Below, one piece after another: positions 1-57,021 of a stretch of DNA of 64,000 nucleotides. Position 1 is the first letter of the stretch. The number at the start of each line of letters is the position of its first letter. The notes beneath the pieces were generated by a model. The model was not told the DNA's origin, made no database searches, and worked only from the letters and a program-made list of their open reading frames with translations. Source of the stretch: Phytophthora colocasiae (Eukaryota > Oomycota > Peronosporomycetes > Peronosporales > Peronosporaceae); the NCBI GenBank assembly GCA_018806915.1, contig JAGKQI010000049.1, forward strand, positions 1,736,001 to 1,800,000, read 5' to 3'. The position numbers were made by a program, and so were the translations under genes.

Positions 1-145
1 TGATGACAGAGATCTTCTCTGTCGGACCGCTGGAAGCAGCAGTGCTAGTGAGCACTGCTGAGGTCGTTGTTCCTGCTGCAGAGGCAGCAGGTGAGGCTTG
101 CGCGTCCGCAGTAGCGGACGGAGACGTGGGCGTTGGCGAGTCCAT
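1..145 (-). CDS. Antisense ORF of GyB, N-terminal 48 codons (partial)
   Basis: This is the beginning of the minus-strand ORF seen complete at 40753-42162. The ATG is the complement of 143-145, and the frame is open to the window edge. The visible part is rich in Ser, Ala, Thr and Pro, with no recognisable domain. It runs opposite to gag-pol, which would lie on the plus strand to the left. Its frame is intact here as in the other copy. Confidence 0.6.
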   Translation of the reverse strand, partial: MDSPTPTSPSATADAQASPAASAAGTTTSAVLTSTAASSGPTEKISVI

Positions 146-246
146 TGCGAAATGAACTCGGATTTCTCTTGGGAACTTGACGGTCTTGTCAAGTTCTGTT
201 GATTGACGTATCGAGACCGATACGTCGAATCTTAACGGGGGGATGG

Positions 247-18483: not shown

Positions 18484-18496
18484 ACCGCCCCTCCTG
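18484..18496 (-). other. Polypurine tract of GyA
   Basis: On the minus strand the 13 bases before the 3' LTR read AGGAGGGGCGGT-like purines, the expected primer for plus-strand synthesis in element orientation. Confidence 0.6.
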
Positions 18497-32258: not shown

Positions 32259-33921
32259 TGTCGCGAAGTCGGTGAAACTTTGGTCGCGGAGCAGGGGCGT
32301 TTAGTGAACCCTAGTTATACGACTACTGAAAAGGGGTTTTCAGAGTCGTACAACGGTAGGTTGGCGTGTGGTACCTTGCGGTATCCTCGTGGTTTCGTTG
32401 TCTTCGGAAATATGACCCTCGCCGGAGTCTGAGAATGTGTTGTGAAGAGAAGTTGGGGTTCCCTTGGAGTCTGGTGTCGGTATTCAGGAAATCCTTCCAG
32501 GAGCGTTCGGGAGTCGGAATCTCTGGAAACCAAGATGGTTTCCAGGAAGTCGGCGGTCGAAAAGAGGTTAATATACCAGAGAAAGTCTGAAATCGGTGTC
32601 TGAATATCACAAATCCAGAACCGAGATACCTGACTTTCAGAGATAAACAACCAATATACAGAGTTCGAAAATATACAAATATATACAGCCGTTCTTATTC
32701 TTTCTAGGCCCTTGAACGGTGGGCTAACACTCCAGGTCAACTAGGGACTTGCTACCAGACACCTGGTCTGTCTGGTATCCCTTTACATTCGCGCACCACC
32801 CTCTAGTATAGAGGAAAAATATAAACCAATACAATCGGCTATATATAACAGTCTACCTTGCACTCTGAAAACGACTGTCTAGTTTCCAGAGCCTGTCCAA
32901 ACGAGCAATATGAAATGGGCTACCGCTAGAGACAAAACAAACGACCCAACTAGGATATGGAATAGGCGGGTCCTCTCAGGTCTCTACGTTACCTGATCTC
33001 CGCCTAAGGGGATTGGAAAGGCGAGAGATCACACGGCACCAAACCTTGACGTGGCCTTGCAGGCAGAAATACAACGACTTCTGGGCTACACGGCAAATTG
33101 AACTCTGTTTATCGTTTATCTTCCTCATAACTATCATATATCTCTGGTAACTCTCTTCTTCTTGTCGTCTTTTGCGTCCTTTATGCAGTCAGTCTTCATA
33201 TCTCAGGTATTCTTGGTCTTTGTATACATCTGGTACTTTGACTTGGTCTCAGTATGCAGGCTGTGCAGCCGATCTCGATGGGTTGACAAGTAGAGACGTC
33301 ATTACGGGGGATGTGCAGGTCAGTAATCACTTGAATGCGTGACTTGAACTTGGGTTCACTTGGTTTCAGTATGGTATTGGATCTTCGGTGGTTTCAGAGT
33401 CTGATATCACTTGGTTTTCAGAGTCGTAGTCACTCAGAGTTAGAGATACCAGAGTCTTGAGTAAGAAACCAGAGTACGGAGCACCAATGCTTCAACGTAT
33501 ATGAAGATCTTGAGGGTTGCGCGGGTGCGCGGCGTCCGGCGCGCGATACTTGGTCTTTGCGGGTATATATTGTGAATCCTGGAACCATCCATCGTCGCGC
33601 TGGACGGTAACGGGATGAGGTCTCTCAGAGATACGTTCTTCTGAGAGACTTTCCGCCGGACCTTAGTCCCTCATCGTTGGGGAAAGTCCGGTGACCAGAC
33701 AGAGTGTAGTTGACCTTCAGAGTTGTGCACACTCTGAAGTACACTTCTGGTCCTTTGGGCCCCTTTACAGTCAGGCGAAGGTTTATCCACAATCTTCCAC
33801 AGATGTCGCACGGGTACGGCCACGTCCCAAAGTCCCTTTCGCTTATAACCCATAGTATAACCAATCACATCATAACGTAATATCCACCTGTCGCTCGAAA
33901 ATCGGAATTAACATCATGTCA
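32259..33921 (-). repeat. 5' LTR of GyA (1663 bp)
   Basis: It matches 16799-18483 except for about a dozen substitutions and a 22-bp gap. It holds the promoter of the element on the minus strand, although no specific core promoter was identified. Confidence 0.95.
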
Positions 33922-34296
33922 ATGAAGTGCACGAAACGCATCAGTGTGAATGGGCGCAGTTACTATCGAAAAACCCATGAAGACTGGGCGACACCCTTCG
34001 AAGAAGGTACTCTTTGCGAAACTGTTTAGGATTACAGTAGCTGTGTGCGAAGGATACGAGGCAAATGCTACCGCTGTGTGACTGATCCGGAGTACCTGTC
34101 CTGCATGATGGAGCACGACCGACGTTTTCGCGAGCGCTACTGTAATCCTAAACAGTTTCGCAAAGAGTACCTTCGCGACCAGGTTCTGAACCGTCTAAGT
34201 GAGCTCTACGGTGACTGCGACGTGAATAAAGATTATGAATGTAGAGGAATACAGTACCATGTCGACCACATCGTCGAAGCCCAGCAGTTAAGTTAG
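33922..34296 (+). pseudogene. Small cysteine-rich ORF with HNH-like tail, split by GyA
   Basis: One frame runs from the GyA border at 33922 to 34296 with a single TAG at 34027-34029. The frame also continues to the left of GyA (about 16759-16798), giving a C-x10-C pair (KCRAIKRF...MKC) reminiscent of short Cys motifs in DUF5763-type proteins. Downstream are more Cys residues and HVDHIVEAQ, resembling an HNH nuclease core. The product is unrecognised. The TAG falls inside one arm of a 38-bp inverted repeat, suggesting that event broke the gene. Confidence 0.4.
34003..34174. repeat. 38-bp perfect inverted repeat with 96-bp loop
   Basis: Positions 34003-34040 and 34137-34174 are exact reverse complements (38 bp). 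Both arms lie inside the same small ORF. There are no TIR-like ends or target repeats, so it is not an obvious transposon; a templated inversion during repair or replication is a plausible origin. Confidence 0.9.
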
Positions 34297-34358: not shown

Positions 34359-34566
34359 TTACTCGTCGATCAGGGCAGTATCATCAAGAGCGTCGTGTAG
34401 CTCGTCCCGATTAAAGTTTCCCACGTCCTCAGGGTCCTCGTGGTCTTCGTCAGCGGCTTCCCAGCTTGTACGGAATCGCTCACCGTAGACGTCATGCTTC
34501 GCAACATGCCAGTCCAGGTAGCTGTCTGAACGAGCCAGCGGCAGCGATGGAGTTGATGACAGTGTT
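34359..34566 (-). pseudogene. C-terminal tail of a pogo/Tigger-like transposase, cut by GyB
   Basis: On the minus strand, sequence left of GyB continues a frame from the other side of the insertion (42723-42785). Together they give a W-V-x3-A-W...T-V-x2-S pattern close to the C-terminus of DDE_1 (pogo, Tigger, jerky) transposases. A neighbouring frame ends in an acidic D/E-rich tail with TAA at 34361-34359. The target duplication gtgtt (34562-34566) is part of this sequence. Only a short signature is conserved, so the family call is tentative. Confidence 0.4.
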
Positions 34567-35026
34567 TGTAACGGGGTTACACGTACAAGTGGTTGTACCA
34601 CTTGTAACTCTAACAGTTAGGATAACTGTTAGAGGTTGGAAATGGGCCTCAGACCCTGGTGTGCTGTACACACCAAAGGATACATGAGCGAACCACATTA
34701 TTGGGTGGTTCGTGTGCATTTGTGCATATTATTGGTAGAAAGTAACGGATTTCTACCAATCACTGAGCAGAGTTTCTGCCAACCACACGTTGGCAGACCC
34801 TTTAGAAATAGATAACAAACAGTTTTAGGAGGTCCATAATTGGCTTATGCCAAATTCAATAACAGTTCTCATTTTACGGTATTTTGCAGTTTAATTTAGT
34901 TATATTTGATTTAATTATACTTATTTAAATAAGAATACTTAAATTAAGTCTATTCTAATTGCACGCTTCCTCATATACGTAAGCGCACGTGTACGTCACC
35001 TAATAGGTCTAGGTAGACCCATTACA
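34567..35026 (+). repeat. 5' LTR of GyB (460 bp)
   Basis: It starts TGTAACGGGG and ends ATTACA. It is almost entirely made of adjacent hairpins, then an AT-rich stretch (34840-34960) that may hold the core promoter. Confidence 0.95.
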
Positions 35027-35028
35027 CC

Positions 35029-35046
35029 TGGTAGCACTTAGTAGTC
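35029..35046 (+). other. Primer-binding site of GyB
   Basis: TGGTAGCACTTAGTAGTC begins two bases after the 5' LTR and fits a tRNA 3' end ending in CCA. The tRNA was not identified. Confidence 0.6.
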
Positions 35047-35075
35047 CGTCCCACGACCGACTGCTGTTCGTTCGT

Positions 35076-36046
35076 ATGGAGTCATACGAACGCGGGGTAG
35101 AGAACTCCCCAATGGATGAGGGATCTGCTGGGACCCCTCAAATGTCCGTGACGCGCACGGACTGCGCCCACCTGTCTGATCCAGAGTGGGAGGCTCTCCA
35201 AAGACTCTCGCGAGTCATTGGAGAGGCAGCGGTAGCTACGATGCTTCGTACGCTATCGCCGACAGAGCAACACGGTGTTGCTCTGGGGTACATTGTTAAG
35301 GAGCAACGAGATGTTGCTGCCTCGGTGGCTTCCCCTAAGCCAAACTCTACGTGAGTACCTACACGGGGAAGGAGGACGAGACCCTCCTTCGGTGGCTTGT
35401 CGAACTCGACACAGCCGTTGCGGCTCGACGTATCGTCGATCCGATGTCGAAGGTCGCGTTCGCCATGTCATGTCTTGGCGGATGTGCGAGGAGTTGGGCC
35501 TATAGGCGCCGACTCTCGGACCCTACGTGCTTCAGCACGTACGAAGTGTTCAAAGAGGAGCTCAAGCTTGCGTTTGAGCCCCCGAAGAACGAGTTCAGAT
35601 CGAGAGCGGAGTTTCTCGATCTGCAACAGGGCAAGGATGATGTTCACACCTTTGCCCAGCGTGCTCGATAATTGGTATCGAACATAGTGGCCAACCCGAT
35701 CGACGAGGCGACCAAGGTCGTCACGTTCATGAAGGGACTACGAGATGGTCCCGTCAAAACATATCTCTTCCGAGAGTATCCGAATACTCTCGAGGAGGCG
35801 ATCAGCCTTGCAATGCAAGAGGGGTTTAGCCGGCGTCAAGCTAAACTCCATGCGAACGCGCCGAAGCCGGCGCGTCCTGTTGTGAAGACGGGAGGTCCGG
35901 AACCTATGGATCTCTCGAGTGCTACGACTGCTGGTCAACAGCAGCGTGGATACGGCAAGGTTCGATGTTACAAGTGTAGTAACATCGGTCACTATGCACG
36001 TGAGTGCACAGCGGGCGGGCGTTCAAAAAACGCCAAGAACCAGTAG
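35076..36046 (+). pseudogene. GyB gag, broken
   Basis: It starts at ATG 35076. A frameshift near 35345 moves to a second frame carrying the Gag capsid-like region (ETLLRWLVELDTAV, then FAMSCLGGCARSWAY). An in-frame TAA at 35669-35671 interrupts it before the rest and the zinc knuckle CYKCSNIGHYAREC (about 35969-36010). It ends at TAG 36044-36046 and overlaps pol, which is in the -1 frame. It would coat element RNA if intact. Confidence 0.85.
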
Positions 36047-39000
36047 GCGCGGGGCGTCCTACTGGTGATGCAGTCTCGCGTGTCGAGCTTGGACACGCGA
36101 CGATGAGGACTGCTGCCCCCAGCGAAAAGGTTTCTCGCTGTAAGCTGCAAGATGACAAGCCAAACCTTGTCATCCTGAACGTGATGTCGAAGAGAGTGAA
36201 CTCTCTTCGTGCCCTAGTGGACTCGGGCGCGTCGAACAACTTTGTTCGACATGGAAGTCTTTGAAGGCTTGACTTCGAAGAGGCCGACACGCCTCGCGGC
36301 GTGTTGGAGGTGCGGTTGGCAACAGGTGCCACCGTGAGGACTGAGAAGCGCGTAGTCCGTGTGCGCTTCTCTTACAAACGAAGGACGTTTGTAGAAGATC
36401 TTATCGTCTTGGATCTAGACGATAAGTTCGACTTGGTATTAGGCATGCTGTGGCTTGCACGGCATGACCCGGTGATCAACTGGGAGAAGCGTACGCTCGT
36501 ACGCTTCAACAACACATGCGCGACAGAGAGCGATGGCCCTGTCAGTGCTGCACATGCACCGGCCGGTGCATGTGAATCCCCAGTTGAGGCAGCAGCGGCC
36601 GCCGCTGCCTCCGATCGCCGCCGGCGACCATCAACGACTCCGGGAGTCGTTGTGAGAAAATGTGTGTCGACTCAGAAATCTGAGCCGAAGGGTCGCGGTC
36701 ACATGAGTGATGGTCAGGTGAATGCGATTCACCTAAGAGAAGGTAAAATACCGGTATTACCGGTATCCTTGGAGGTAGTTCAAGCCTCCAAGGGTCGCGC
36801 CGACGACGTCGCGTCAACTCTGGGAGTTGACGAAGCAAATAATATTCGGGGAACCGAAAGGCGTGCGTCAGCTCTGGGAGCTGACGCCACTGGCGCGTCG
36901 CTGCTAGTTCCGGGAACTAGCGATCGTGCGTCAGCTCTGGGAGCTGACGATATGTGTACAAGCGAACACTCGCTAGCGCAGGAAGCTAGCGAGAGCACGT
37001 CGACTCCGGGAGTCGACGATGCGGTTGCTTCATCCGCTCCGGGAGCAGATGGAGGCGCAGCGGTTCAGGGAACCGACTGCGCGGCAGGAGGTGCTGGCGG
37101 TTGCAAACGTCCAGCACCCGAACAACCTGCGTGCTCACGTGCAGCAGCGCTGCACGCGATGAGCGGCACTCAAGCAGGGCTTGATAGTGCGAGTCAGCGG
37201 AAGGAATCCGCTGACGATTGCGATAACGTCCCGTCCAAGGTGCTATGCCTTGGACGTGGAGCACCTGGAGCCGGGCTCCACGGTAGACCTTCGCGGCGCA
37301 AGCTCAGGGAGCTGCGCGAGTCTCAGTCTGGGACTGAGACGGGTGTATCTGCAGTGCAGACACCGAGTGTCGAGACGTTGAACGTCTTGACACGTACTGG
37401 TACTGGGTTACAGTACCAGAGGATGCGGTTGGAGAATCCGCCGACGAGTGCGTCGGCGTTGACCGCACTTCCAACGATGAGTTGGAAGCGCTTCGCGCGA
37501 GACTTGTACGATGGACGCATCGAACAAATTTGCATTCTCTCGGATATCGAGAGAGTGGGTCGCGAAGCCGAAGAGCTGAAGCAGCTCGTCGTCGATGGGA
37601 TCACTGAGGGTGATGACTCCCTCAGTGCGAAGACTAAGAAGCAGCGCTTCGAAGAGCAGAGTTGGGACTCGTTGAGGTCGAGTCCCTATTACGAGATTCT
37701 GCGGGAGTACAAGGATGTACTCCCGGACGAGATTCCTTCGGAGCTTCCGAAGGACAAGGGCGTACAGCACGAGATTGATCTCGTGCCGGGCACGAAGTAC
37801 TGTGTTACACGGCAGTGGCCACTGCCGCGTGAACAAGTGCAAGCGATCGACGACTTCTTTGAAAGTCGTCGTCTTGCAGGTCAAGTGCGGGAGTCAAAGT
37901 CCCCGCACAGTGCCCCAACGTTCTGTGTTAAGAAACCACAGGGCGGCTGGCGCATCGTTCATGCGTACAACAAGTTGAACGATGCGACGATACCGGCGCA
38001 GACGCCGATACCGCGAAAAGATGTTATCATCGATTCGATGGCCTTGAGCACTATCTTCAGTGCTCTAGATCTGCGTGATGGATTCTACCAAATCCTCATG
38101 CGTGAGAGGGGCATCCCTCTCACAGCGGTAAGCACTCCAAGCGGCATGCTTTGGGAGTGGCTCGTCATGCCACAGGGGCTTAAGAACGCCCCTGCGACGT
38201 TCAATAGATGTGTGACACATCTATTGCGCTCGGTGCGCGACTTCGCACCGAGCTACTTCGACGACGTGTTCATCCACAGCCGGGCTGTGAACGGGAAGAC
38301 GGACATTGAGATGCACAAGGTGCATCTCCGGAAGCTGCTAGAGCTTATGAGGAAACATAAGCTCTATGCGAACCTGAAGAAGTGCATCTTCGGGGCGAGC
38401 GAGATACCCGTGCTGGGGTGTCTTGTGGGGAAAGACGGCGTGCGTCCTGACCCAGAGAAGGCCAGAGTGATCAATGAATGGCCCACGCCATCCAATGTGA
38501 AGGAACTGAGGCAGTTCCTTGGGCTTGCCACGTACTTGTGCAAGTACGTGGACAACTATGCGGGCAAGATTCGCCCGTTGTCACAGCTTCTTAAGAAAGA
38601 AGCTGAGTGGATTTGGACGACCGAGTGCGAGGATGCATTCGGTGCAGTCAAGCAGGGCTTGACTGAAGCGCCGATCTTGGCCGTGGCGGACCAAGATCGT
38701 CCATTCCACGTAGTGTGCGATGCATCCGACTTTGCAATCGGATGTGCATTGATGCAACACGATCACGAAGGGCGTGATCGTGTAGTCTACTATCAATCGC
38801 GTCAGCTGAAGCCAGCTGAGCGTAACTATCCCGTACATGACAAGGAGCTCCTTGCCATGAAGTATGCACTCGCAAAGTTCCGAGTGTATCTACTTGGGAG
38901 TAGACCGTTCGTGGTCTATACAGACCACGCATCATTGCGTACGGCGATTAAGTCGCCGCACATCTCGCAACGTATGGCGAGATGGTTGTCCTTCTTCGCG

Positions 39001-40146
39001 GAGTACAACTTCCGGATGGAGTACAAACCCGGAAGACTCAATGTAGTGGCCGACGCGTTATCGCGTCGACCTGACTATGCGGAGACGGTCGACGCCAACG
39101 CTGTTGGCGTCGTGAGGACAAGTGTGCCGTCGTCAACGTTGATTGACGACGTGAAGAACGCGTATGCAAGGGATGCAGACGCGAAGGGGCTGCTGGAGTT
39201 CCTCGCAGCACCTTCCGACGTGGCACGTCGGAAGCTAACCCCTCATCTTTGAGCTCGTGTACACCGCTATCGTGTACACAAAGGCCTACTGTTGTAAAGT
39301 GCAGTAGACGACAATGCGGATCGCATTGTCGTTCCGAATGATCATGACCTCCGGTTGAGGATCATGTTCGAGTATCACGATGCCCCCACGGCAGGGCATC
39401 CGGGTCGTGAGAAGACATACACTCTTCTCACGCGTGACTTCTACTGGCACCACCAGTACAAGTGGGTGCGCAAGTACGTACGTGCTTGCGAGGTTTGTCA
39501 ACGCGTGAAGCCTGCGCAGTTCTCGCAGGCTCCTCTTCAATCACTACCGACTCCGTCGGAGTGTTGGCAGTCCATGTCCATGGACTTTGTCTTCGGTCTT
39601 CCGCCTGACAGCAAGCGGAGGACGGGCATCGTTGTCTTTGTGGACCGATTCAGCAAGATGGTTCATCTTGCTGCCGTTCCGGCTACTGTTACAGCCGCGC
39701 AGACTGCGCGACTGTTTGTTGACATGGTGTTCAAACACCATGGCATGCCGCTCGACATTGTGTCGGACCCTGATCCACGCTTCACAGCGCGGTTCTGGCA
39801 AGAAGTGTTTACACTTCTTGGTTCACAGCTATCAATGTCGACTGCGGATCATCCGCAGACGGACGGACAGACCGAACGTGTCAACCGTGTACTGGGTGAC
39901 ACGCTGAAGAGCTACGCTCACTCGTTCCCTCATTGGAGCGAGTGCTTGCCGATGGCAGAGTTTGCCATCAACAACTCGGTGCATGCCTCGACAGGGCATA
40001 CACCGTTCTACGTGAATGCCATGAGGCATCCACGATTGCCGAGCATGCTCGGCGGGGTAGCTTCCTCCTTAAGTGGGGGGGATCTACGGTTGCGTCCGAA
40101 CAACCGCAGAATACAACTGATAGCAGCACACTATCAGCTGCGGTGA
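36004..40146 (+). pseudogene. GyB pol: protease, reverse transcriptase, RNase H, integrase
   Basis: One frame is kept for over 4 kb but contains TGA at 36262-36264, TGA at 39250-39252 and TAA at 39295-39297. Protease has LVDSGASNNF (about 36222). A hairpin-rich linker spans about 36600-37400. RT shows GLKNAPATFN and SYFDD (about 38251), a YFDD form of the YxDD site. RNase H has CDASDFA, DKELLA and YTDHASL. Integrase has the HHCC finger (HPGREKTY...CEVCQRV) and core residues in MDFVFGLP, SDPDPRF and TERVNRV. A frameshift near 40140 ends this frame. Confidence 0.92.
36632..37075. repeat. Cluster of hairpins sharing a CTCYGGGAG-type centre
   Basis: At least eight stems in about 440 bp have the same kind of centre: GACTCCGGGAGTC (twice), CAACTCTGGGAGTTG, CAGCTCTGGGAGCTG (twice), AGTTCCGGGAACT, GCTCCGGGAGC and GGTTCAGGGAACC. 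They lie in the protease-RT linker, which encodes repeated Ser/Ala-Leu/Pro-Gly-Val/Ala-Asp units. The arms differ between copies but stay self-complementary. Confidence 0.85.
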
Positions 40147-41108
40147 CGCGTGCGACGTCTCGTTCTAGCAGGAACGAGCGCGCGATGTCTGTGCCGGGCA
40201 CAGACGCGAGAGATGATAGCGAGCAGGCAGGGCCTGCTGCTGACAAGGGCGACAAGCTGAAAGGATTCAGCTCGGGTGCGCTAGACTTTGTCCAGCGAAG
40301 ACAAGCCGTCATACGGTTTGTCCAGGATGCTATCGCAGCTTCTGTCGATCGACAGAAGCTGAACGCTGATACTGTTGGTAGAGGCAACACAAATGAATTC
40401 GAAAGGGTTCATTAGTTTTGTTAGCTACACAAAACCTACCTAGACATGCAGTGTCTGACTTTGGAGCAAGCAAACTTGCTCCAAGATTCATTGGGCCGTT
40501 CAAAGTACTTGAACGGCGCGGCAACGCGTACCGGCTGGACATACCGTCCAGCATGAGGCTCCACCCGACCTTCTACGTCGGGCGGTTGAAGCCGTACGTG
40601 CAGCACGGACTACCTAGGGCTGGTAGTCCGACTGAGGAGTGCGAGAGGCCTGGAAGGCCTTCTCGAGACCGTCGACACGGTCGATCAACCGGTTCACTCT
40701 CGTCCCAAGACCGGACGAGAGGTTCGAGGCAGTCTGAGCTGCCTCGCAGACCTCAGCACGGAGGACACGAACCTCCTGCTTCCAGAGCAGCGATCTCAGC
40801 GCTCTGTGTCTGCTCCAGCGCAGCAACTCGATCGTGCAGGGCACGATCGTCATGGTCATAGCGTTGACCATGCGGAGGGAGTGTTCCCACCCCCTCCGCC
40901 GCCGTTGCGCGACGCGCGTGGAGCGATCCGCTGGATTGTTGAGCGGATTGTGGCTCATAAGAGAACGAAATCTCAAGGGGTTCGTTTTCGTATTCGTTGG
41001 AGAGGATTTCCTCCCCATCGAGATACATGGGAGCCGCGGAACGTCCTGATGGAGGACGTTCCGGAAATGGTGAGGGCGTACGAAGCCCACCATAACTTGC
41101 AGGGGTAA
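40129..41108 (+). pseudogene. GyB integrase C-terminus, GPY/F module and chromodomain
   Basis: The frame after 40129 reads an integrase C-terminal helix (DAIAASVDRQKLNAD). A frameshift near 40415 leads to GPFKVLERRGNAYRLDIP, the GPY/F-type module, with HPTFYVGRLKPY. A third frame ends in a chromodomain (IRWIVERIVAHKR, then FRIRWRGFPPHRDTWEP, about 40918-41045). The chromodomain part overlaps the antisense ORF on the other strand. Frameshifts make this copy inactive. Confidence 0.85.
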
Positions 41109-42162
41109 ACCCTGCACGAGGAGTGCTGCGGTCAGCCACAGCACTCGGAGCTTCGCGTGGCACAATACGACCACGGAGCTCCTTGATGTGATCGGGTACA
41201 CGGACGACCGTGTACCCCAGGAGGTCACTTTCAGTGAAACGTGTTGCCAACCCTTGGCAACACGGGCAGGGTGTGCCAAAGGGAACGGCACATGGGATCC
41301 CCGCTTCCATGGACTGATCATGGAGGCGTTCACACTTACCACGCGTAGTGTAAGTGTAGTAGCGATCGCGAGCCGCAGCAACGCGCTCGCGATATGCCTT
41401 CGGGCCTTTGTTGAAGTTTTCAACAAAGGCGTTCCACGACTGACAAAGTGCCTGCCACTCTGGCACTTTGCTCTTGCGCGAAGTCTTCTTCGCTGCATAG
41501 TATCGGAGCTCGTGGAAGAGTTCGATATAGTAGTCGCGTCTTTGAGTCTCGGACTCAAAGACAACCTTAGCGGCGACGTCGTCGTCGTTGATACTGTTGC
41601 ATGAGTACAACAGTATCGGGTTCGGTGGTGAACTAGCACCGAACCGGTCATGGATTTCTGCCTTAGTAGGCATCCATGGTGTGCGCACTGGCGGATCAGT
41701 GCGCGGGGCAGTGAGCGCCCTCGACATGGGGGACGCTTCATCATCACTGCGCGGACGCTTCGAGCTTGAAGCGTCCGAGGCCTCATGACGAGGTCGTCGA
41801 GATCCCACGGTTGGGTCTGACGTGTCTTCGGACGAAGACACGGGAGCGGGAGCCTTGACATCAACCTCCCCCTCCTCGACATCCTCCTCGTAGTCGAGGA
41901 TGTCTTCGTAGTCCTCTCCAAAGAGTTCTTTGAGAGGGACAGCAGGATTCTTAATCTCTGCTAGAGAAGAAGACTTCTTCTTCTTCTCATGCTTCTCCTT
42001 ATGGAGAGCATGGTACTTGATGACAGAGATCTTCTCTGTCGGACCGCTGGAAGCAGCAGTGCTAGTGAGCACTGCTGAGGTCGTTGTTCCTGCTGCAGAG
42101 GCAGCAGGTGAGGCTTGCGCGTCCGCAGTAGCGGACGGAGACGTGGGCGTTGGCGAGTCCAT
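40753..42162 (-). CDS. Antisense ORF of GyB (469 aa, intact)
   Basis: An uninterrupted frame runs from the ATG at 42162 to 40753, opposite to pol and overlapping the chromodomain at its 3' end. It has a Ser/Thr/Ala-rich N-terminus, a Lys run (KEKHEKKKKSSS), an acidic stretch (EDILDYEEDVEEGEVD), KRPRSDDEA, a helical middle region (RRDYYIELFHELRYYAAKK, then WNAFVENF), a possible zinc site CPCC and a Gln/Ala-rich end. No known family recognised. It stays open while gag and pol are broken, and its start is also open in copy 1. Confidence 0.6.
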   Translation of the reverse strand: MDSPTPTSPSATADAQASPAASAAGTTTSAVLTSTAASSGPTEKISVIKYHALHKEKHEKKKKSSSLAEIKNPAVPLKELFGEDYEDILDYEEDVEEGEVDVKAPAPVSSSEDTSDPTVGSRRPRHEASDASSSKRPRSDDEASPMSRALTAPRTDPPVRTPWMPTKAEIHDRFGASSPPNPILLYSCNSINDDDVAAKVVFESETQRRDYYIELFHELRYYAAKKTSRKSKVPEWQALCQSWNAFVENFNKGPKAYRERVAAARDRYYTYTTRGKCERLHDQSMEAGIPCAVPFGTPCPCCQGLATRFTESDLLGYTVVRVPDHIKELRGRIVPREAPSAVADRSTPRAGFTPASYGGLRTPSPFPERPPSGRSAAPMYLDGEEILSNEYENEPLEISFSYEPQSAQQSSGSLHARRATAAEGVGTLPPHGQRYDHDDRALHDRVAALEQTQSAEIAALEAGGSCPPC

Positions 42163-42250
42163 TGCGAAATGAACTCGGATTTCTCTCGGGACTTGACGGT
42201 CTTGTCAAGTTCTGTTGATTGACGTATCGAGACCGATACGTCGAATCTTA

Positions 42251-42262
42251 ACGGGGGGATGG
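42251..42262 (+). other. Polypurine tract of GyB
   Basis: ACGGGGGGATGG lies directly before the 3' LTR. The same tract is at about 235-246 in copy 1. Confidence 0.7.
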
Positions 42263-42722
42263 TGTAACGGGGTTACACGTACAAGTGGTTGTACCACTTG
42301 TAACTCTAACAGTTAGGATAACTGTTAGAGGTTGGAAATGGGCCTCAGACCTTGGTGTGCTGTACACACCAAAGGATACATGAGCGAACCACATTATTGG
42401 GTGGTTCGTGTGTATTTGTGCATATTATTGGTAGAAAGTAACGGATTTCTACCAATCACTGAGCAGAGTTTCTGCCAACCACACGTTGGCAGACCCTTTA
42501 GAAATAGATAACAAACAGTTTTAGGAGGTCCATAATTGGCTTATGCCAAATTCAATAACAGTTCTCATTTTACGGTATTTTGCAGTTTAATTTAGTTATA
42601 TTTGATTTAATTATACTTATTTAAATAAGAATACTTAAATTAAGTCTATTCTAATTGCACGCTTCCTCATATACGTAAGCGCACGTGTACGTCACCTAAT
42701 AGGTCTAGGTAGACCCATTACA
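42263..42722 (+). repeat. 3' LTR of GyB (460 bp)
   Basis: It differs from the 5' LTR at about two positions and from the copy 1 LTR (247-705) at about seven. Confidence 0.95.
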
Positions 42723-42785
42723 GTGTTGCTGTCAGTATCTCGCCATGCCTTTCTTACCCACTCACAAACTACAGCTACCGACGGC
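42723..42785 (-). pseudogene. Pogo/Tigger-like transposase fragment, right of GyB
   Basis: On the minus strand this reads VCEWVRKAWRDTDSN and continues across GyB into 34566-34500. The W-V...A-W spacing is that of the last conserved block of DDE_1 transposases. The equivalent in copy 1 (706-754 and from 1593) is split by the mariner-like element. Rightward to 42916 no clear coding remains. Confidence 0.4.
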
Positions 42786-47000: not shown

Positions 47001-47611
47001 ACGAGATCATCCGATACTTAAGCGCGAGGTACATCTCTCCCATTGAGGCGTGTATGCGTCTCCTCGGGCACGTTGTGCAAGGGAAGTCCCATGCGGTTTT
47101 CCAGCTCACGGTCCACCTCGAAGGTGAGCAGATGGTGGTATTCCGCGAGACCGAAGATCCGGAACGCGTCATGGATCGTAGTGAGCGCACCAAGCTTACT
47201 GCCTTCTTCGACATATGTGCGAGTAGAGCGCCCGAAGACCAGGTAGCCAAGACAATTGTGTATCAGGATGTGCCGAAGTACTTTAGATGGGACAAACACA
47301 AGATATGGGTCCGCCGCAAAAAGTATCAAGCTGCACTAGGAGGGATGATTCACGTGTCTCCGCGAGATGAGGAGAGGTTCTACTTACGCGTCTTGCTATG
47401 CCATCGCAAAGGAGAAGAAGGAGATCACTGCATTTTTCATAACAACAAATACATGTTCACTGTGCATATGAAACACTGTGTATGTTTTTGTCCCCTCCGA
47501 GCGAAGCGAAGGCAGGGGCTACAGAGTAGTAGGGCGAGCTGGAACAGCGAGCACTACGGGTTGGGACCTAACACATACACACCGCCCGCAAAGCGGGCGG
47601 CACTCGGCTAG
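44035..47611 (+). pseudogene. Helitron H1 Rep-type protein, several frameshifts
   Basis: The start is ATG 44035. A 44-nt intron (44070-44113, GTACGT...TAACAG) joins exon 1 to the main frame. Order: nuclear-signal-like KRRRINRRKQ, a long Arg/Glu/Gln-rich coiled coil, a zinc site (CGHCNAW...CC), the Helitron_like_N region, HUH motif GLPHAHIIV (about 46480) and Y2 motif YLYKYVYKG (about 46906). Compared with H2 it has an extra base near 45011, two near 45590-45630 and a lost base near 45700. The frame ends at the TAG of the element's terminal CTAG. Confidence 0.88.
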
Positions 47612-50600
47612 TCTCTACCCTCTAGGCTAGTGCCGTGTCTGTGTGTCTGTGCGTCTGTGTGTCCGTTGTGTGTCTGTTCAACGTCATAGTGCATAAACCT
47701 GCGTAGCTACCTGTCTCTCCATTTTGTACATGTAGGCATTCTATACTGTATTTTCCCATGGTGTAGCCTATCCCTATGTTCTAGACTGGTCTCAGGAATG
47801 CCAAAATTACAAATATAGCCCACTAATGATAACCCTCTCAATGGCCTCTGATTGGTCGATTTAATTCTAGAATTCTTTCATTCCAAAACGCAAACGGCGT
47901 CAGCAGCGACAGAGGACATTACGCGAACGGCGCGGCGGCTAGCGAGGACAGGAGTGATCGAGCGGCGCAGCCAGCCTAGGAATACTCGGTAAGTACCTAT
48001 ATAAACATAATACAGCTATTAAATCTTTACGGTGTCGGGTGTTCCGCCTTGTGGGAGAACTGGTACCACATTGGGGCAACTGGGAGCTGGTGTGTACAAA
48101 ATTAAGGGTGGGCTGGAGCCTGCGGAGGACTCTGACAGGTCCTCTGCGGGGCTTGAGGGAGGGTTGCAGTGGGTGCCACGCCACGGCCATTCTGACCGAG
48201 ACCCCTCTCGAGCGCACAGACGCCGGGCAGTCCACCCCGAATCTACAATATTGCCCATTTAAGCAAGTAAGCCATCCCTGCGGGTACTTTGGTGAAAATT
48301 GAAATTTGGGTACTGTAGCTTTTGCGCCCAAGTCCATGCCCGTCCCAGTTTTGGGATAAAAGGTTGCAGCTGGCCACCCTTCGCCGTTCCTGTCTCAGTT
48401 CTGCCTCTCTATTGCTCTTCGGAGCCCCGACCCTGAGACGCCCATGTTCGCCCGCCAGCGGCATGGGAAGCCTCATACCAATCCGGGGTCCTGGGTGGAT
48501 CCATGTGGCGATAAAGCCGGCTTGGCCGGGCCGCCCACCTCAGCCTTGGGCCAGTGGTCGTGTGTGAGACCGGCACATGTTATGGAGACATTTCATGCTG
48601 CTTACCGTGTCAGGGGCAGAACGGTATGCGCTGCATGTTCATTTTCACCTATCAAGAATTAGTTTACAGTTAAAATACAATTATTCAGTGTTAGACCGTT
48701 GTATAACGCTGCTTCCTTTGTGCTTTTTTGCGAGGGAAGGCTATGGCTCCCGTCAGGGTCGACACGAAGCGGGATAGGTACGTAAAATTAATGTTTCGTG
48801 CTGTTGGAAGTCTTCTAACAGTCTACTGTGTAGAGACGACCGTCGAGGACAGCTGCAGCATCGTTTAGACGAAGCGGAGCGCGTGAACGCAACTCCAGCA
48901 GAGGATGAATCACCTACTGCAAAGCGACGACGGATCAACAGAAGGAAGCAGGCACGCAACCGTTTTTCGAGGGCTTCGCGAGAATTGGAACTACTCAGTC
49001 AGCAGGTAAACAACGTTTCGGTTTCAGGCGACCCCATTGTAGCCCCTGTAGATGCACCGGTGGTTCCTCCGACAGGAACAACCATGGCCCCCACTACGAA
49101 TCCATCCAGTGCTGCGGCGCTTAGGATGAGTGACGCAGAGAGAGCCAGGCTGCGGCGGGCAAACATGAGCTCTTCCCAACGCGAACGTACGCGGCAACGG
49201 AATGCCGAACGCCAGCGGCAACGGAGAGCTCAACGAAGTGCTGAACAAGTGGTAGCAGATCGCGAAAGAAACCGACTTGAACAGCAAAATCGTCGGGGCC
49301 TTCAGGGTCAGATTGGTCTTGATATTGCCAGTGAGCGCCAAGCGCAAATACGCTCCCAACTTTCCCAAGAAGACCGAGACATCGAACGAGAACGAAACAC
49401 AGAAACAAGAGCCATTCGTCGTTCCCAGCAAGACGAGAATGAACGTAAGGAGGAGCGCGAAGCAAATGCTGTGGTTCAGGCATCCCGACGTGCCCGTCAG
49501 ACGGATGAGGAGCGTGCGGCAGAGCGAGAACGGGACCGAGAGCGTCACGCCATTAGAAGGGCATTACAAACGGAGGAAGAGCGCGAAGAAGAGCGCGAGC
49601 GTGTTCGAGAACGTCGACGTATCACTCGCCATCGAAAAGCACTTGTAAACCATGAAGATTTCCGCCCGTCGATGGTCACAGGTCCAGATGTTGATGAAGA
49701 CACCAGACGCCACCGGCTGCCTCCCACTACGGTGTGCGGTCACTGTAACGCGTGGAAGTGGCCTGGTGAAAGCGAGTCTGCCTGCTGTATCGAGGGGAAA
49801 GTCAGACTACCACCTCTGGCCCCAGCTCCAGACGAACTTCTCCAGCTTTACGGAGACCCCAATTTTCGAAAGCAGATACGGGCGTACAACCAGGCGTTTG
49901 CCTTTACGTCTATCGGTGCTTCAAACCCGACCACGGGTAGGTTTCAGAACGTCAACCAGGACAACAGCGTCGCGGGTGAACGTGGCGTATACTCCTACCG
50001 AATTCAAGGTGCTATGGGCCACTACATGGGTTCGTTGTTGCCATACATTGATCGTCGAACTGGCCAAAGGACTCAGCCCAAGTTTGCGCAGATCTATATC
50101 GTCGATCCGGACATGGAGCGCCGAGCTGAGAGACGTATGGGGATTTTCGCAGACCTGGACCCTGTGGCTTTGTTAGACATCGAGCGGGTGATGCAAAGGT
50201 ACAACCCGTTCGCTCAGCAGTTTCTCACGTTTGGCGAAAGGGTGCGTCAAAGCGATATGCAGCAGCCAATCGACTTGGTGTTCCGTCTGAGAAACAATCC
50301 TTCCAGACCTCGAACGGAAAATCTGCCGACGGTTTCTGAAGTGGCCGTCACTATGATTGAAGACGGCAACCTCGCACAGCCTCGCGATCTCTTGGTATAT
50401 ACAAAAGACAGAAATCTCATGCGTCTCTGGGAAACAAACGCCAACTACGACCCCCTTCAGTACCCGCTACTTCTTCCGTATGGAGAATTGGGGTGGACGT
50501 ATACGGATACGTACGAAGGTGATGTGGTGCGCAGGGACAAACGCGAAATGGCTCTACGTGAGCACGTCGCGTATCGACTCTTCCAAAAGGACGATGACCG

Positions 50601-52316
50601 ATCAGCTCTACATAAAGGGGGCCGCCTTTTCCAACAGTATTGTGTGGACCAGAGAGCCAAATGCGAGCAAGAAGAACTTCGCTGGATAGCAACTCACCAG
50701 AAGGAGATCCGTGCTTACCAGTACAATGGACTGCGAGATGCGTACCTGAGCGAAGCTATGGAAGAGGCTAGGACTATCCTGCGCGATGGCGAAGGACTCT
50801 TGGCGGAATATGATCGTGACACTGGAGAGCTGGCTCACCCCGACCGAGCCCGAAACAGGCACTTTCTCAATCAGGTTGGGAAGAAGATCATCTTACCGTC
50901 TTCTCACTCAGGGAGCCCGCGTCAGATGTATCAATCGTACCAAGACTCGATGGCAATCGTTAGGGAGTACGGCAAGCCAGATATCTTCGACACGATGACT
51001 TGCAATCCAAAGTGGGAAGAGATCCAAGAGCAGATTCGCGATCCTAACCAGAGCGCCCAAGACCGCCCAGACATCGTCGCGAGAGTATGGCAGCAAAAGC
51101 TGGCTGCTCATTTAAAAGACTTAGACGAGGGTGTGCTTGGGCGGGTTTCCGCTCGGATTTACGTGGTAGATTTTCAAAAGCGTGGACTTCCTCATGCGCA
51201 CATCATTGTCATATTGGCGGACGAGGACAAACCACGCACGAGGCAGATTATTGACAAGATTGTATCGGCGGAAGTACCGGATCCTGACACCAACCCTGGC
51301 CTTTATGAAACGGTCATGACGAATATGATGCACGGGCCCTGTGGCGCGGCGAATCCATCGTGTGTCTGTATGAAGGATGGCAAGTGTACAAAGGGCTACC
51401 CGAAACCGTTCGTGGATACAACGCGGGTGAGCGAAGACGGTTTCCGCAGTACAGACGCCGACGACGATCGGAAGGATTTTTTACATTCAATGGAAGACGG
51501 TACGACAATGCTACGCTGAATCAGTGGGTGGTGCCATACAACCCATACTTTTCATACAAGTACAACTGCCACATCAACATTGAAATCTGCACAGCACTGT
51601 CGGTGGTGAAGTATCTCTACAAGTACGTGTACAAGGGATCCGACAGAGCTGTGATTACAGTGGAGACGGTGCAAGACGAAGGTAATATCGACAGACGGGA
51701 ACCCAACGAGATCATCCGATACTTAAGCGCGAGGTACATCTCTCCCATTGAGGCGTGTATGCGTCTCCTCGGGCACGTTGTGCAAGGGAAGTCCCATGCG
51801 GTTTTCCAGCTCACGGTCCACCTCGAAGGTGAGCAGATGGTGGTATTCCGCGAGACCGAAGATCCGGAACGCGTCATGGATCGTAGTGAGCGCACCAAGC
51901 TTACTGCCTTCTTCGACATATGTGCGAGTAGAGCGCCCGAAGACCAGGTAGCCAAGACAATTGTGTATCAGGATGTGCCGAAGTACTTTAGATGGGACAA
52001 ACACAAGATATGGGTCCGCCGCAAAAAGTATCAAGCTGCACTAGGAGGGATGATTCACGTGTCTCCGCGAGATGAGGAGAGGTTCTACTTACGCGTCTTG
52101 CTATGCCATCGCAAAGGAGAAGAAGGAGATCACTGCATTTTTCATAACAACAAATACATGTTCACTGTGCATATGAAACACTGTGTATGTTTTTGTCCCC
52201 TCCGAGCGAAGCGAAGGCAGGGGCTACAGAGTAGTAGGGCGAGCTGGAACAGCGAGCACTACGGGTTGGGACCTAACACATACACACCGCCCGCAAAGCG
52301 GGCGGCACTCGGCTAG
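47612..52316 (+). mobile_element. Helitron H2 (4.7 kb), tandem copy
   Basis: It follows H1 without spacing (CTAG|TCTCTACCC) and ends in CTAG at 52313-52316. It is nearly identical to H1 and H3, so amplification is recent. Differences are mostly single-base indels. Confidence 0.9.
48743..52316 (+). pseudogene. Helitron H2 Rep-type protein, one frameshift
   Basis: This is the best preserved copy. ATG 48743 and intron 48778-48821 lead into an open frame to about 51444. There one C of a CCC run is missing and the frame moves to the one ending at 52316. HUH (GLPHAHIIV, about 51186) is before the break, and Y2 (YLYKYVYKG, about 51612) is after it. Helicase motifs are absent; the protein stops shortly after RFYLRVLL, where RepHel proteins normally continue towards the helicase. 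Confidence 0.9.
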
Positions 52317-55300
52317 TCTCTACCCTCTAGGCTAGTGCCGTGTCTGTGTGTCTGTGCGTCTGTGTGTCCGTTGTGTGTCTGTTCAACGTCATAGTGCATA
52401 AACCTGCGTAGCTACCTGTCTCTCCATTTTGTACATGTAGGCATTCTATACTGTATTTTCCCATGGTGTAGCCTATCCCTATGTTCTAGACTGGTCTCAG
52501 GAATGCCAAAATTACAAATATAGCCCACTAATGATAACCCTCTCAATGGCCTCTGATTGGTCGATTTAATTCTAGAATTCTTTCATTCCAAAACGCAAAC
52601 GGCGTCAGCAGCGACAGAGGACATTACGCGAACGGCGCGGCGGCTAGCGAGGACAGGAGTGATCGAGCGGCGCAGCCAGCCTAGGAATACTCGGTAAGTA
52701 CCTATATAAACATAATACAGCTATTAAATCTTTACGGTGTCGGGTGTTCCGCCTTGTGGGAGAACTGGTACCACATTGGGGCAACTGGGAGCTGGTGTGT
52801 ACAAAATTAAGGGTGGGCTGGAGCCTGCGGAGGACTCTGACAGGTCCTCTGCGGGGCTTGAGGGAGGGTTGCAGTGGGTGCCACGCCACGGCCATTCTGA
52901 CCGAGACCCCTCTCGAGCGCACAGACGCCGGGCAGTCCACCCCGAATCTACAATATTGCCCATTTAAGCAAGTAAGCCATCCCTGCGGGTACTTTGGTGA
53001 AAATTGAAATTTGGGTACTGTAGCTTTTGCGCCCAAATCCATGACCTTCCCATTTTTTGGGATAAAAAGGTTGCAGCTGGCCACCCTTCGCCGTTCCTGT
53101 CTCAGTTCTGCCTCTCTATTGCTCTTCGGAGCCCCGACCCTGAGACGCCCATGTTCGCCCGCCAGCGGCATGGGAAGCCTCATACCAATCCGGGGTCCTG
53201 GGGTGGATCCATGTGGCGATAAAAGCCGGCTTGGCCGGGCCGCCCACCTCAGCCTTGGGCCAGTGGTCGTGTGTGAGACCGGCACATGTTATGGAGACAT
53301 TTCATGCTGCTTACCGTGTCAGGGGCAGAACGGTATGCGCTGCATGTTCATTTTCACCTATCAAGAATTAGTTTACAGTTAAAATACAATTATTCAGTGT
53401 TAGACCGTTGTATAACGCTGCTTCCTTTGTGCTTTTTTGCGAGGGAAGGCTATGGCTCCCGTCAGGGTCGACACGAAGCGGGATAGGTACGTAAAATTAA
53501 TGTTTCGTGCTGTTGGAAGTCTTCTAACAGTCTACTGTGTAGAGACGACCGTCGAGGACAGCTGCAGCATCGTTTAGACGAAGCGGAGCGCGTGAACGCA
53601 ACTCCAGCAGAGGATGAATCACCTACTGCAAAGCGACGACGGATCAACAGAAGGAAGCAGGCACGCAACCGTTTTTCGAGGGCTTCGCGAGAATTGGAAC
53701 TACTCAGTCAGCAGGTAAACAACGTTTCGGTTTCAGGCGACCCCATTGTAGCCCCTGTAGATGCACCGGTGGTTCCTCCGACAGGAACAACCATGCCCCC
53801 ACTACGAATCCATCCAGTGCTGCGGCGCTTAGGATGAGTGACGCAGAGAGAGCCAGGCTGCGGCGGGCAAACATGAGCTCTTCCCAACGCGAACGTACGC
53901 GGCAACGGAATGCCGAACGCCAGCGGCAACGGAGAGCTCAACGAAGTGCTGAACAAGTGGTAGCAGATCGCGAAAGAAACCGACTTGAACAGCAAAATCG
54001 TCGGGGCCTTCAGGGTCAGATTGGTCTTGATATTGCCAGTGAGCGCCAAGCGCAAATACGCTCCCAACTTTCCCAAGAAGACCGAGACATCGAACGAGAA
54101 CGAAACACAGAAACAAGAGCCATTCGTCGTTCCCAGCAAGACGAGAATGAACGTAAGGAGGAGCGCGAAGCAAATGCTGTGGTTCAGGCATCCCGACGTG
54201 CCCGTCAGACGGATGAGGAGCGTGCGGCAGAGCGAGAACGGGACCGAGAGCGTCACGCCATTAGAAGGGCATTACAAACGGAGGAAGAGCGCGAAGAAGA
54301 GCGCGAGCGTGTTCGAGAACGTCGACGTATCACTCGCCATCGAAAAGCACTTGTAAACCATGAAGATTTCCGCCCGTCGATGGTCACAGGTCCAGATGTT
54401 GATGAAGACACCAGACGCCACCGGCTGCCTCCCACTACGGTGTGCGGTCACTGTAACGCGTGGAAGTGGCCTGGTGAAAGCGAGTCTGCCTGCTGTATCG
54501 AGGGGAAAGTCAGACTACCACCTCTGGCCCCAGCTCCAGACGAACTTCTCCAGCTTTACGGAGACCCCAATTTTCGAAAGCAGATACGGGCGTACAACCA
54601 GGCGTTTGCCTTTACGTCTATCGGTGCTTCAAACCCGACCACGGGTAGGTTTCAGAACGTCAACCAGGACAACAGCGTCGCGGGTGAACGTGGCGTATAC
54701 TCCTACCGAATTCAAGGTGCTATGGGCCACTACATGGGTTCGTTGTTGCCATACATTGATCGTCGAACTGGCCAAAGGACTCAGCCCAAGTTTGCGCAGA
54801 TCTATATCGTCGATCCGGACATGGAGCGCCGAGCTGAGAGACGTATGGGGATTTTCGCAGACCTGGACCCTGTGGCTTTGTTAGACATCGAGCGGGTGAT
54901 GCAAAGGTACAACCCGTTCGCTCAGCAGTTTCTCACGTTTGGCGAAAGGGTGCGTCAAAGCGATATGCAGCAGCCAATCGACTTGGTGTTCCGTCTGAGA
55001 AACAATCCTTCCAGACCTCGAACGGAAAATCTGCCGACGGTTTCTGAAGTGGCCGTCACTATGATTGAAGACGGCAACCTCGCACAGCCTCGCGATCTCT
55101 TGGTATATACAAAAGACAGAAATCTCATGCGTCTCTGGGAAACAAACGCCAACTACGACCCCCTTCAGTACCCGCTACTTCTTCCGTATGGAGAATTGGG
55201 GTGGACGTATACGGATACGTACGAAGGTGATGTGGTGCGCAGGGACAAACGCGAAATGGCTCTACGTGAGCACGTCGCGTATCGACTCTTCCAAAAGGAC

Positions 55301-57021
55301 GATGACCGATCAGCTCTACATAAAGGGGGCCGCCTTTTCCAACAGTATTGTGTGGACCAGAGAGCCAAATGCGAGCAAGAAGAACTTCGCTGGATAGCAA
55401 CTCACCAGAAGGAGATCCGTGCTTACCAGTACAATGGACTGCGAGATGCGTACCTGAGCGAAGCTATGGAAGAGGCTAGGACTATCCTGCGCGATGGCGA
55501 AGGACTCTTGGCGGAATATGATCGTGACACTGGAGAGCTGGCTCACCCCGACCGAGCCCGAAACAGGCACTTTCTCAATCAGGTTGGGAAGAAGATCATC
55601 TTACCGTCTTCTCACTCAGGGAGCCCGCGTCAGATGTATCAATCGTACCAAGACTCGATGGCAATCGTTAGGAGTACGGCAAGCCAGATATCTTCGACAC
55701 GATGACTTGCAATCCAAAGTGGGAAGAGATCCAAGAGCAGATTCGCGATCCTAACCAGAGCGCCCAAGACCGCCCAGACATCGTCGCGAGTATGGCAGCA
55801 AAGCTGGCTGCTCATTTAAAAGACTTAGACGAGGGTGTGCTTGGGCGGGTTTCCGCTCGGATTTACGTGGTAGATTTTCAAAAGCGTGGACTTCCTCATG
55901 CGCACATCATTGTCATATTGGCGGACGAGGACAAACCACGCACGAGGCAGATTATTGACAAGATTGTATCGGCGGAAGTACCGGATCCTGACACCAACCC
56001 TGGCCTTTATGAAACGGTCATGACGAATATGATGCACGGGCCCTGTGGCGCGGCGAATCCATCGTGTGTCTGTATGAAGGATGGCAAGTGTACAAAGGGC
56101 TACCCGAAACCGTTCGTGGATACAACGCGGGTGAGCGAAGACGGTTTCCCGCAGTACAGACGCCGACGACGATCGGAAGGATTTTTTACATTCAATGGAA
56201 GACGGTACGACAATGCTACGCTGAATCAGTGGGTGGTGCCATACAACCCATACTTTTCATACAAGTACAACTGCCACATCAACATTGAAATCTGCACAGC
56301 ACTGTCGGTGGTGAAGTATCTCTACAAGTACGTGTACAAGGGATCCGACAGAGCTGTGATTACAGTGGAGACGGTGCAAGACGAAGGTAATATCGACAGA
56401 CGGGAACCCAACGAGATCATCCGATACTTAAGCGCGAGGTACATCTCTCCCATTGAGGCGTGTATGCGTCTCCTCGGGCACGTAGTGCAAGGGAAGTCCC
56501 ATGCGGTTTTCCAGCTCACGGTCCACCTCGAAGGTGAGCAGATGGTGGTATTCCGCGAGACCGAAGATCCGGAACGCGTCATGGATCGTAGTGAGCGCAC
56601 CAAGCTTACTGCCTTCTTCGACATATGTGCGAGTAGAGCGCCCGAAGACCAGGTAGCCAAGACAATTGTGTATCAGGATGTGCCGAAGTACTTTAGATGG
56701 GACAAACACAAGATATGGGTCCGCCGCAAAAAGTATCAAGCTGCACTAGGAGGGATGATTCACGTGTCTCCGCGAGATGAGGAGAGGTTCTACTTACGCG
56801 TCTTGCTATGCCATCGCAAAGGAGAAGAAGGAGATCACTGCATTTTTCATAACAACAAATACATGTTCACTGTGCATATGAAACACTGTGTATGTTTTTG
56901 TCCCCTCCGAGCGAAGCGAAGGAACGTCCTACGGAGTAGAGGGGCGAGCTGGAACAGCGAGCACTACGGGTTGGGACCTAACACATACACACCGCCCGCA
57001 AAGCGGGCGGCACTCGGCTAG
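52317..57021 (+). mobile_element. Helitron H3 (4.7 kb), tandem copy
   Basis: Third unit of the array, ending in CTAG at 57018-57021. Near its 3' end (about 56923-56945) it differs from H1 and H2 (GGAACGTCCTACGGAGTAG), a private change. Confidence 0.9.
53452..57021 (+). pseudogene. Helitron H3 Rep-type protein, two frameshifts
   Basis: ATG 53452 and intron 53487-53530 are as in the other copies. A lost G near 53793 and another near 55671 break the frame, and 3 nt are missing near 55790-55803. The main open pieces are 53834-55705 and 55702-57021. Domains are as in H2: coiled coil, zinc site, HUH (about 55892) and Y2 (about 56318). The breaks are at different places in each of the three copies. 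Confidence 0.88.

Follow-up and report, generated by a model that had tools for sequence, protein, structure and literature searches.

Perfect hairpins throughout a clade of Ty3/gypsy retrotransposons in Phytophthora colocasiae

Why should a retrotransposon be filled, from one long terminal repeat (LTR) to the other, with short perfect hairpins? The question is raised by a 64,000-nucleotide stretch of the oomycete Phytophthora colocasiae (GenBank assembly GCA_018806915.1, contig JAGKQI010000049.1, positions 1,736,001 to 1,800,000; hereafter the window), in which a complete Ty3/gypsy element, here called GyB, lies at positions 34567–42722. An earlier note, made from the letters alone, had pointed out stems in all parts of this element and had offered two interpretations, namely selection for ordered RNA structure on both strands, or the repeated conversion of quasi-palindromes into perfect ones by template switching of the reverse transcriptase (RT), using synonymous sites. 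The first fits most of the measurements described here, and the second has precedent in other systems. The answer that we favour is that selection acts on the local folding of both single strands, template switching being an occasional source of stems.

Excess, geometry and spread of the stems

A stem was defined as a perfect inverted repeat with a loop of 0–15 nt, and stems were counted over the whole of GyB. For arms of at least 7, 8, 9, 10, 11 and 12 bp, 153, 118, 85, 41, 18 and 6 stems were observed, while 200 dinucleotide shuffles gave means of 6.5, 1.5, 0.4, 0.1, 0.05 and 0.005 (maxima 13, 6, 3, 2, 1 and 1), and the excess of perfect hairpins claimed in the earlier note is therefore real. 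Codon-preserving shuffles, which the note had proposed together with a count in the neighbouring element GyA, also fall far below the observed values (300 synonymous shuffles per open reading frame (ORF), arms of at least 8 bp): 51 stems against a mean of 1.8 (maximum 7) in the pol ORF, which encodes protease (PR), RT and RNase H (RH); 8 against 0.4 (maximum 3) in the integrase (IN) ORF at 39355–40146; 3 against 0.4 (maximum 2) in the ORF at 39933–40415; and 25 against 1.05 (maximum 4) in the antisense ORF. No part of the element is spared, as the note had said of the LTRs, gag, protease, RT, RNase H, integrase and antisense ORF, with a density of 10.2–21.7 stems per kb in the 5′ LTR, leader–gag, PR/linker, RT–RH, IN and 3′ antisense regions. 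The regular spacing of 25–45 bp was not confirmed, since the centres of the 105 non-overlapping stems of at least 8 bp lie 73 ± 47 nt apart on average, close to random. Stems cover 2,465 of 7,696 nt (32%).

The stems have a characteristic geometry, with loop sizes peaking at 3 nt. Arms of 5–6 bp are the commonest, as chance predicts, and a second peak stands at 9 bp, about 200 times above chance. AT-rich stems are longer (rho −0.31, p = 3e-4; in coding sequence only, −0.26, p = 0.02), and this relation, together with the peak at 9 bp, is what a stability criterion would give. In the pol ORF the stems show no preference for codon phase (22/19/19), by which an origin through synonymous sites only is rejected. 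In the linker between PR and RT, moreover, amino acids co-vary with DNA pairing: of its five repeats four are perfect hairpins and the fifth has one A·C mismatch, and in all five T stands with V and A with A, the combinations that DNA pairing demands. The use of synonymous sites, as first proposed, is thus only partly right. The linker as a whole (36530–37100; the linker of copies L059 and L057) contains hairpin-coding repeat units and is the most divergent part between GyB subfamilies, a divergence that looks like duplication.

Among the loci read, hairpins of this kind are largely confined to one clade. The two ORFs of GyA hold no stem of at least 8 bp in 7.9 kb, so the description of GyA as free of hairpins stands for its coding sequence, but not for its LTRs (16799–18484 and 32259–33922; 1.69 kb, 98.1% alike), which carry four perfect stems of 9–10 bp each. 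In the non-GyB flanks of 30 genomic LTR loci, 29 stems of at least 8 bp were counted in 40.7 kb (0.71 per kb, against 14.5 per kb in GyB). A Pfam search of the same genome, in which 150 of 2684 RNase H candidates were scored and 30 were read as loci, returned thirteen gypsy loci outside the clade with 0–1 stem of at least 8 bp per 3.3 kb; by RT identity these comprise the lone L031 and one clade with four subgroups 80–89% alike, and GyA forms a third outgroup. By the same measure nine GyB loci carry 26–45 stems, and eight loci of the sister family GyB2 (about 73% amino-acid identity) carry 11–18. The lineages GyB3 (67% identity) and GyB5 (70–72% identity) have 5.8 and 2.6–3.7 stems per kb, so that the clade members read span 2.6–14.5 per kb. 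Two loci considered as intermediate families, L064 and L065, were rejected as such, both being GyB copies (L065 only partly alignable).

Between lineages most individual stems have been replaced while stem density has remained well above chance. At 55–65% DNA identity, four lineages have 7 of 92 stem sites in common, so that distant relatives mostly lack stems at the same places. Lineages also seem to differ in the arm length that they prefer; GyB3 (L066–L068) is most visibly enriched in shorter stems, of 6–8 bp in L066, yet has a folding excess of 27–31%. Homologues of the GyB RT region, 71–93% identical, occur in P. ramorum, P. cinnamomi, P. sojae, P. cactorum, Globisporangium and Peronospora (among the best 120 of 2729 matches), and no DNA of clade relatives from other organisms was found in the viral contig and genome contig collections searched.

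Maintenance of pairing and folding of both strands

Within GyB2, pairs persist through scarcity of change and, in part, through compensatory change. Copies 86–96% identical were compared, and the fate of their pairs was set against simulations using the substitution rates of unpaired sites, in ten directed comparisons that are not independent of each other. A significant deficit of broken pairs was found in eight of the ten; from L048 to L041, 3 of 105 pairs were broken (19.1 expected), in the opposite direction 11 of 155 (28.1 expected), and from L051 to L041 none of 97 (19.1 expected). The complementary changes that the earlier note had proposed to look for among relatives are in significant excess in three of these ten close comparisons (5, 6 and 3 double changes observed), the five double Watson–Crick changes from L041 to L048 comparing with 0.73 expected (P = 0.0005). 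Examples are GTTACCAGC/GCTGGTAAC vs GTTGCCGGC/GCCGGCAAC and GCTGACC/GGTCAGC vs GCTGACT/AGTCAGC.

Variation among GyB copies was assessed in 58 GyB stretches plus the window, after the duplicates L001, L014 (the window's own element) and L077 (= L059) had been dropped. At third-codon sites of the RT, variants common to at least three copies occur at 2 of 226 sites in stems and 26 of 493 outside (p = 0.003), about six times fewer, with 27 singletons in stems and 77 outside (shared vs singletons, p = 0.039).

The pairing in stems is Watson–Crick, without preference for the sense strand. Pooled over four families, the stems with one mismatch comprise 11 with A·C, 10 with G·T and 11 with other mismatches, compared with 116 perfect stems of at least 9 bp. 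In GyB both strands fold far better than shuffles, the antisense strand at least as well as the sense strand. Measured in 350-nt fragments against dinucleotide shuffles, the excess in GyB (21 fragments) is 34.3% for sense and 41.2% for antisense; the corresponding values are 27.5/30.9% in GyB3, 6.8/7.8% in GyB2 and 5.7/3.8% in GyB5, compared with −4.7/−6.0% in a hairpin-free gypsy element (L063) and 1.1/2.6% in GyA. In 150-nt segments of GyB the antisense strand has a mean z of −4.96 and the sense strand −4.43 (p = 0.006), all 76 sense segments having z ≤ −1.2, and the composition-corrected difference between strands is 2.3 kcal (p = 2e-4, overlapping segments). The structure is local, with 83–86% of predicted pairs in GyB spanning at most 40 nt, compared with 52% in the shuffle.

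The reading to which we give a probability of about 0.5 is that the local folding of each single strand is under selection, with an occasional supply of stems by template switching. Selection on both strands, as one of the two interpretations in the earlier note had it, fits most of the measurements (GyB2 pairing, RT third-codon sites, nearly equal numbers of A·C and G·T, folding of both strands). The constraint would act on the single-stranded stages of the element, that is, the genomic RNA, an antisense transcript and the minus-strand complementary DNA (cDNA), each of which would immediately collapse into hairpins. Such folding would most likely serve as a shield, in that hairpins may hinder the annealing of sense to antisense strands and the action of host RNA-silencing enzymes and nucleases. 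Template switching at hairpins would now and then supply a stem, and selection would retain it. An antisense transcript is made plausible by the antisense ORF at 40753–42162, where variants common to at least two copies fall on 20, 17 and 44 of the 468, 469 and 468 sites at codon positions 1, 2 and 3 (p = 8e-5) and those common to at least three copies number 7, 13 and 24 (p = 0.003); this third-position excess suggests that the frame is coding.

Several results weigh against selection. The sense–antisense difference is significant in GyB only, and not in GyB2 or GyB3. The L048–L051 pair of GyB2 copies (96% alike) has no deficit of broken pairs in either direction, and seven of the ten GyB2 comparisons have no significant excess of double changes (0–3 observed). 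Shared variants are not significantly rarer in stems than outside in the LTR (1/302 vs 3/618), leader–gag (8/309 vs 39/965) or 3′ region (21/787 vs 39/1886); the pooled per-site test gives 35/2069 vs 111/4957 (p = 0.17; p = 0.04 with the three duplicate stretches in), and the pooled test of shared variants against singletons p = 0.75. Between GyB5 and GyB5b, stems differ at 17 of 110 sites and the remainder at 128 of 2113, much of this stem divergence lying in the poorly aligned linker. GyB5 stems sit at the least conserved amino acids, as a mutational process would likewise place them, with private amino-acid changes at 5/17 stem and 10/280 non-stem positions (p = 7e-4). Raised amino-acid change in stems is a mixed result across the four families, the other three giving 14/96 vs 19/219 (GyB, p = 0.16), 1/26 vs 11/268 (GyB2, p = 1) and 1/31 vs 45/297 (GyB3, p = 0.10).

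Alternative origins of the stems

The strongest alternative is that, in synthesis by the element's RT or by host replication, nascent DNA folds back at a weak inverted repeat, is extended on itself and then returns, which would convert quasi-palindromes into perfect stems, protein selection only filtering the outcome. As the whole explanation we consider this rather unlikely. It would account for stems that are perfect, Watson–Crick and strand-symmetric, with few imperfect ones among them, and for the indifference to codon phase. Precedent exists in other systems: in the portions cited here, PMC8794818 reports that template switching creates and maintains hairpins, and the stem size in GyB fits the yeast quasi-palindrome mutations of PMC3820800 (perfect repeats of 5–9 bp). 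The likeness in these two sources extends to perfect Watson–Crick repeats of GyB size, compensatory pairs and loop inversions, although the loci treated in the cited portions are RNA genes, microRNA loci and yeast reporters and not saturated elements. Among the copies themselves, L056 and L065 differ by one true 3-nt loop inversion, and L055 has a deletion of about 0.5 kb whose junction hairpin (match to 39799–39820) is inverted, as fold-back would leave it. Three stems present in one GyB2 lineage are absent in another, the two differing there by clusters of 4–6 changes, and the stem sites of GyB5 are the more changeable ones.

However, the signature examined is nearly absent among GyB copies. 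In 61 GyB stretches and the window, none of 233 substitution clusters had created a local inverted repeat, in a test that covered substitutions only and matches of at least 8 nt and that counted a few clusters twice through duplicate stretches, and no stem birth by template switching was thus found among GyB copies. The loop inversion just mentioned is the one real case in 138 reverse-complement loop pairs (loops of at least 3 nt, 297 stem arms), the other 137 being explained by loci on opposite strands. No consistent source or target arm emerged either, none of the arm asymmetries being significant. Free copying from arm to arm predicts approximately neutral paired change, and the depletion of shared variants at third-codon stem sites of the RT therefore favours selection.

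Selection might instead act on the sense genomic RNA only, through packaging, control of translation or RNase resistance, which is the usual assumption for ordered RNA structure in viruses. The sense strand does fold far beyond its shuffles (mean z −4.4 per 150 nt; 34%), and GyB3 taken alone leans towards G·T, with 14 stems containing 1–3 G·T and 4 containing 1–3 A·C. Selection on sense RNA should, however, favour G·U, and across families A·C is about as frequent as G·T, so this explanation is disfavoured. The fraction of G·U among predicted pairs in GyB lies below that of the shuffle (0.07 vs 0.11), and the antisense strand of GyB folds better than the sense strand, if not significantly so in GyB2 and GyB3. 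We judge selection confined to the sense strand improbable.

Still less probable is that the stems are recognition or cruciform sites in double-stranded DNA, serving chromatin, integration or recombination. Strand symmetry and Watson–Crick perfection would suit such sites, but stem positions are mostly unconserved between lineages, the loop peak at 3 nt is that of single-strand hairpins, and no common stem motif was apparent by eye, no motif search having been made. A by-product of composition, codon bias, simple repeats or assembly error can be dismissed, because dinucleotide and synonymous shuffles reject composition and codon bias, only seven minor tandem-repeat rows at a score of at least 30 were found (tandem or simple repeats being rejected as the stem source), and the same stems recur in copies across many contigs.

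Layout, known systems and significance

By every feature examined (LTRs, target duplication, domain order, multicopy) GyB is a Ty3/gypsy LTR retrotransposon, and its coordinates are collected in Table 1. Pfam matches along 36301–40146 follow the gypsy order of protease, RT, RNase H and integrase. One frame of the leader–gag region contains CYKCSNIGHYAREC, which we take to be zinc-knuckle-like. The two LTRs differ at 2 of 460 positions, and a search of the genome (92.5 Mb, 105 contigs) gave at least 40 LTR matches at 99% identity or above, the window's own two included (40 of 657 candidates scored); GyB is a recently active oomycete family, one of at least four lineages in its clade. As a further correction to the earlier note, the first ~620 nt of the window are the tail of another GyB copy with the same stems. 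In Pfam searches neither the integrase-region ORF 39933–40415 nor the antisense ORF had a match. Two GyB2 copies, L061 and L062, have antisense open frames of 353 and 335 codons (stop to stop) in the interval between pol and the 3′ LTR, for which tblastn found no similarity to the GyB antisense ORF. Elsewhere in the window, a hairpin CCGCCCGC-aaa(a)-GCGGGCGG occurs nine times, six times in 2205–4081 and three times in 47582–57010, these last three 4,705 bp apart, like repeated units.

Table 1. Features of GyB and of a second GyB copy, in positions of the window
Feature	Position	Strand	Remarks
Complete Ty3/gypsy element GyB	34567–42722	+	8,156 bp
Target-site duplication	34562–34566 and 42723–42727		GTGTT, both sides of GyB
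5′ LTR	34567–35026	+	460 bp, TG...CA; stems e.g. 34584–34606, 34608–34634, 34731–34760, 34775–34797
5′ leader and gag region	35027–36300	+	13 stems of at least 8 bp
pol ORF (PR-RT-RH)	36301–39252	+	Pfam; 51 stems of at least 8 bp
Protease (RVP_2), followed by linker	inside pol ORF	+	Pfam
PR-RT linker repeats	36814–37050	+	STLGVD 36814; SALGAD 36868, 36931; STPGVD 37000; SAPGAD 37033
RT	37927–38421	+	Pfam; inside pol ORF
RNase H	38614–39006	+	Pfam; inside pol ORF
Example stem in pol ORF	36551–36574		perfect palindrome, 12-bp arms, loop 0
Example stem in RT coding region	38202–38226		12 bp
Integrase, two overlapping ORFs	39355–40146 and 39933–40415	+	H2C2 zinc finger and rve core
Example stems in integrase region	39799–39820; 40336–40361		13-bp arm (40336–40361)
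Antisense ORF	40753–42162	−	469 amino acids; 25 stems of at least 8 bp
Example stem in antisense ORF	41404–41430		12 bp
Polypurine-tract-like AACGGGGGGATGG	42250–42262	+	adjoins 3′ LTR
3′ LTR	42263–42722	+	
3′ end of second GyB copy	1–616	+	same stems; its RT at G000:C50:1731911-1732900

GyB can be compared with the genome-scale ordered RNA structure (GORS) of positive-strand RNA viruses such as coronaviruses and hepatitis C virus, for which the cited part of PMC7642675 describes stem-loops that follow one another by the hundred through coding regions, individual pairings that are weakly conserved among relatives although the extent of structure is maintained, and less diversity at paired sites. 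GyB likewise has consecutive stems through coding sequence and keeps its structure while pairings change, in the manner of the 'simple maintenance of pairing' of that source. Folding beyond composition-matched shuffles extends along the whole of GyB and is weaker in GyB2 and GyB5 (4–8%). Structure without conserved pairings is seen in four lineages that have an energy excess of 4–41% and few stem sites in common, and less diversity at paired sites is seen at RT third-codon sites and as fewer broken GyB2 pairs, but is not significant in the LTR, leader–gag or 3′ region or in the pooled data. GyB differs in being a retrotransposon and not a positive-strand RNA virus, for which the structure is measured on the genomic strand, in perfect stems that favour an arm of 9 bp and contain few G·U pairs, and in an antisense strand that folds as well or better. 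The folding-energy excess given in the same part of PMC7642675 is about 15% for SARS-CoV-2 and reaches 23.4% in the highest coronavirus, compared with 34–41% in GyB, a rough comparison in that fragment steps and shuffles differ.

Among retrotransposons, GyB is like other oomycete Ty3/gypsy elements in its LTRs, target-site duplication and PR-RT-RH-IN order, and stands apart by its stems from the remaining gypsy loci that were read in this genome, which lack them. The available text of PMC5348765 on oomycete retrotransposons contains neither 'hairpin' nor 'inverted repeat', and the elements it treats were not compared with GyB. Plant Retand elements also have an antisense ORF in the interval between pol and the 3′ LTR, but 97% of Retand clusters carry TRP28 at that place according to the part of PMC11963269 cited here, in which the word hairpin does not occur, whereas the GyB antisense ORF has no Pfam match. 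No report of a hairpin-saturated LTR retrotransposon was found among the best 5–20 papers of each search of the open-access literature, subscription papers and preprints lying outside the search.

We would put at even odds the wider proposition that in this clade each of the two complementary strands (the RNA, and either the first cDNA strand or an antisense RNA) has to fold into a string of perfect hairpins. The structure would be conserved and the stems interchangeable, and a strand-symmetric fold code would run over LTRs and coding sequence and dictate linker amino acids; it could be a cloak that hides the element from silencing, or else the mark left by a self-copying RT. If true, this would exceed any genome-wide local folding that we know of and, within the reach of our searches, be the first such case in an LTR retrotransposon. 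Discussion of genome-wide RNA folding has centred on RNA viruses, and its cause there is not settled. In the GyB clade the effect is larger, the stems are perfect and their turnover can be measured, and hairpin-free relatives in the same nucleus provide a natural comparison, so that families with and without hairpins can be compared for small RNAs, antisense transcription, integration and reverse transcription. The clade is likewise suited to testing whether RNA structure on the scale of a genome can be built by template switching.

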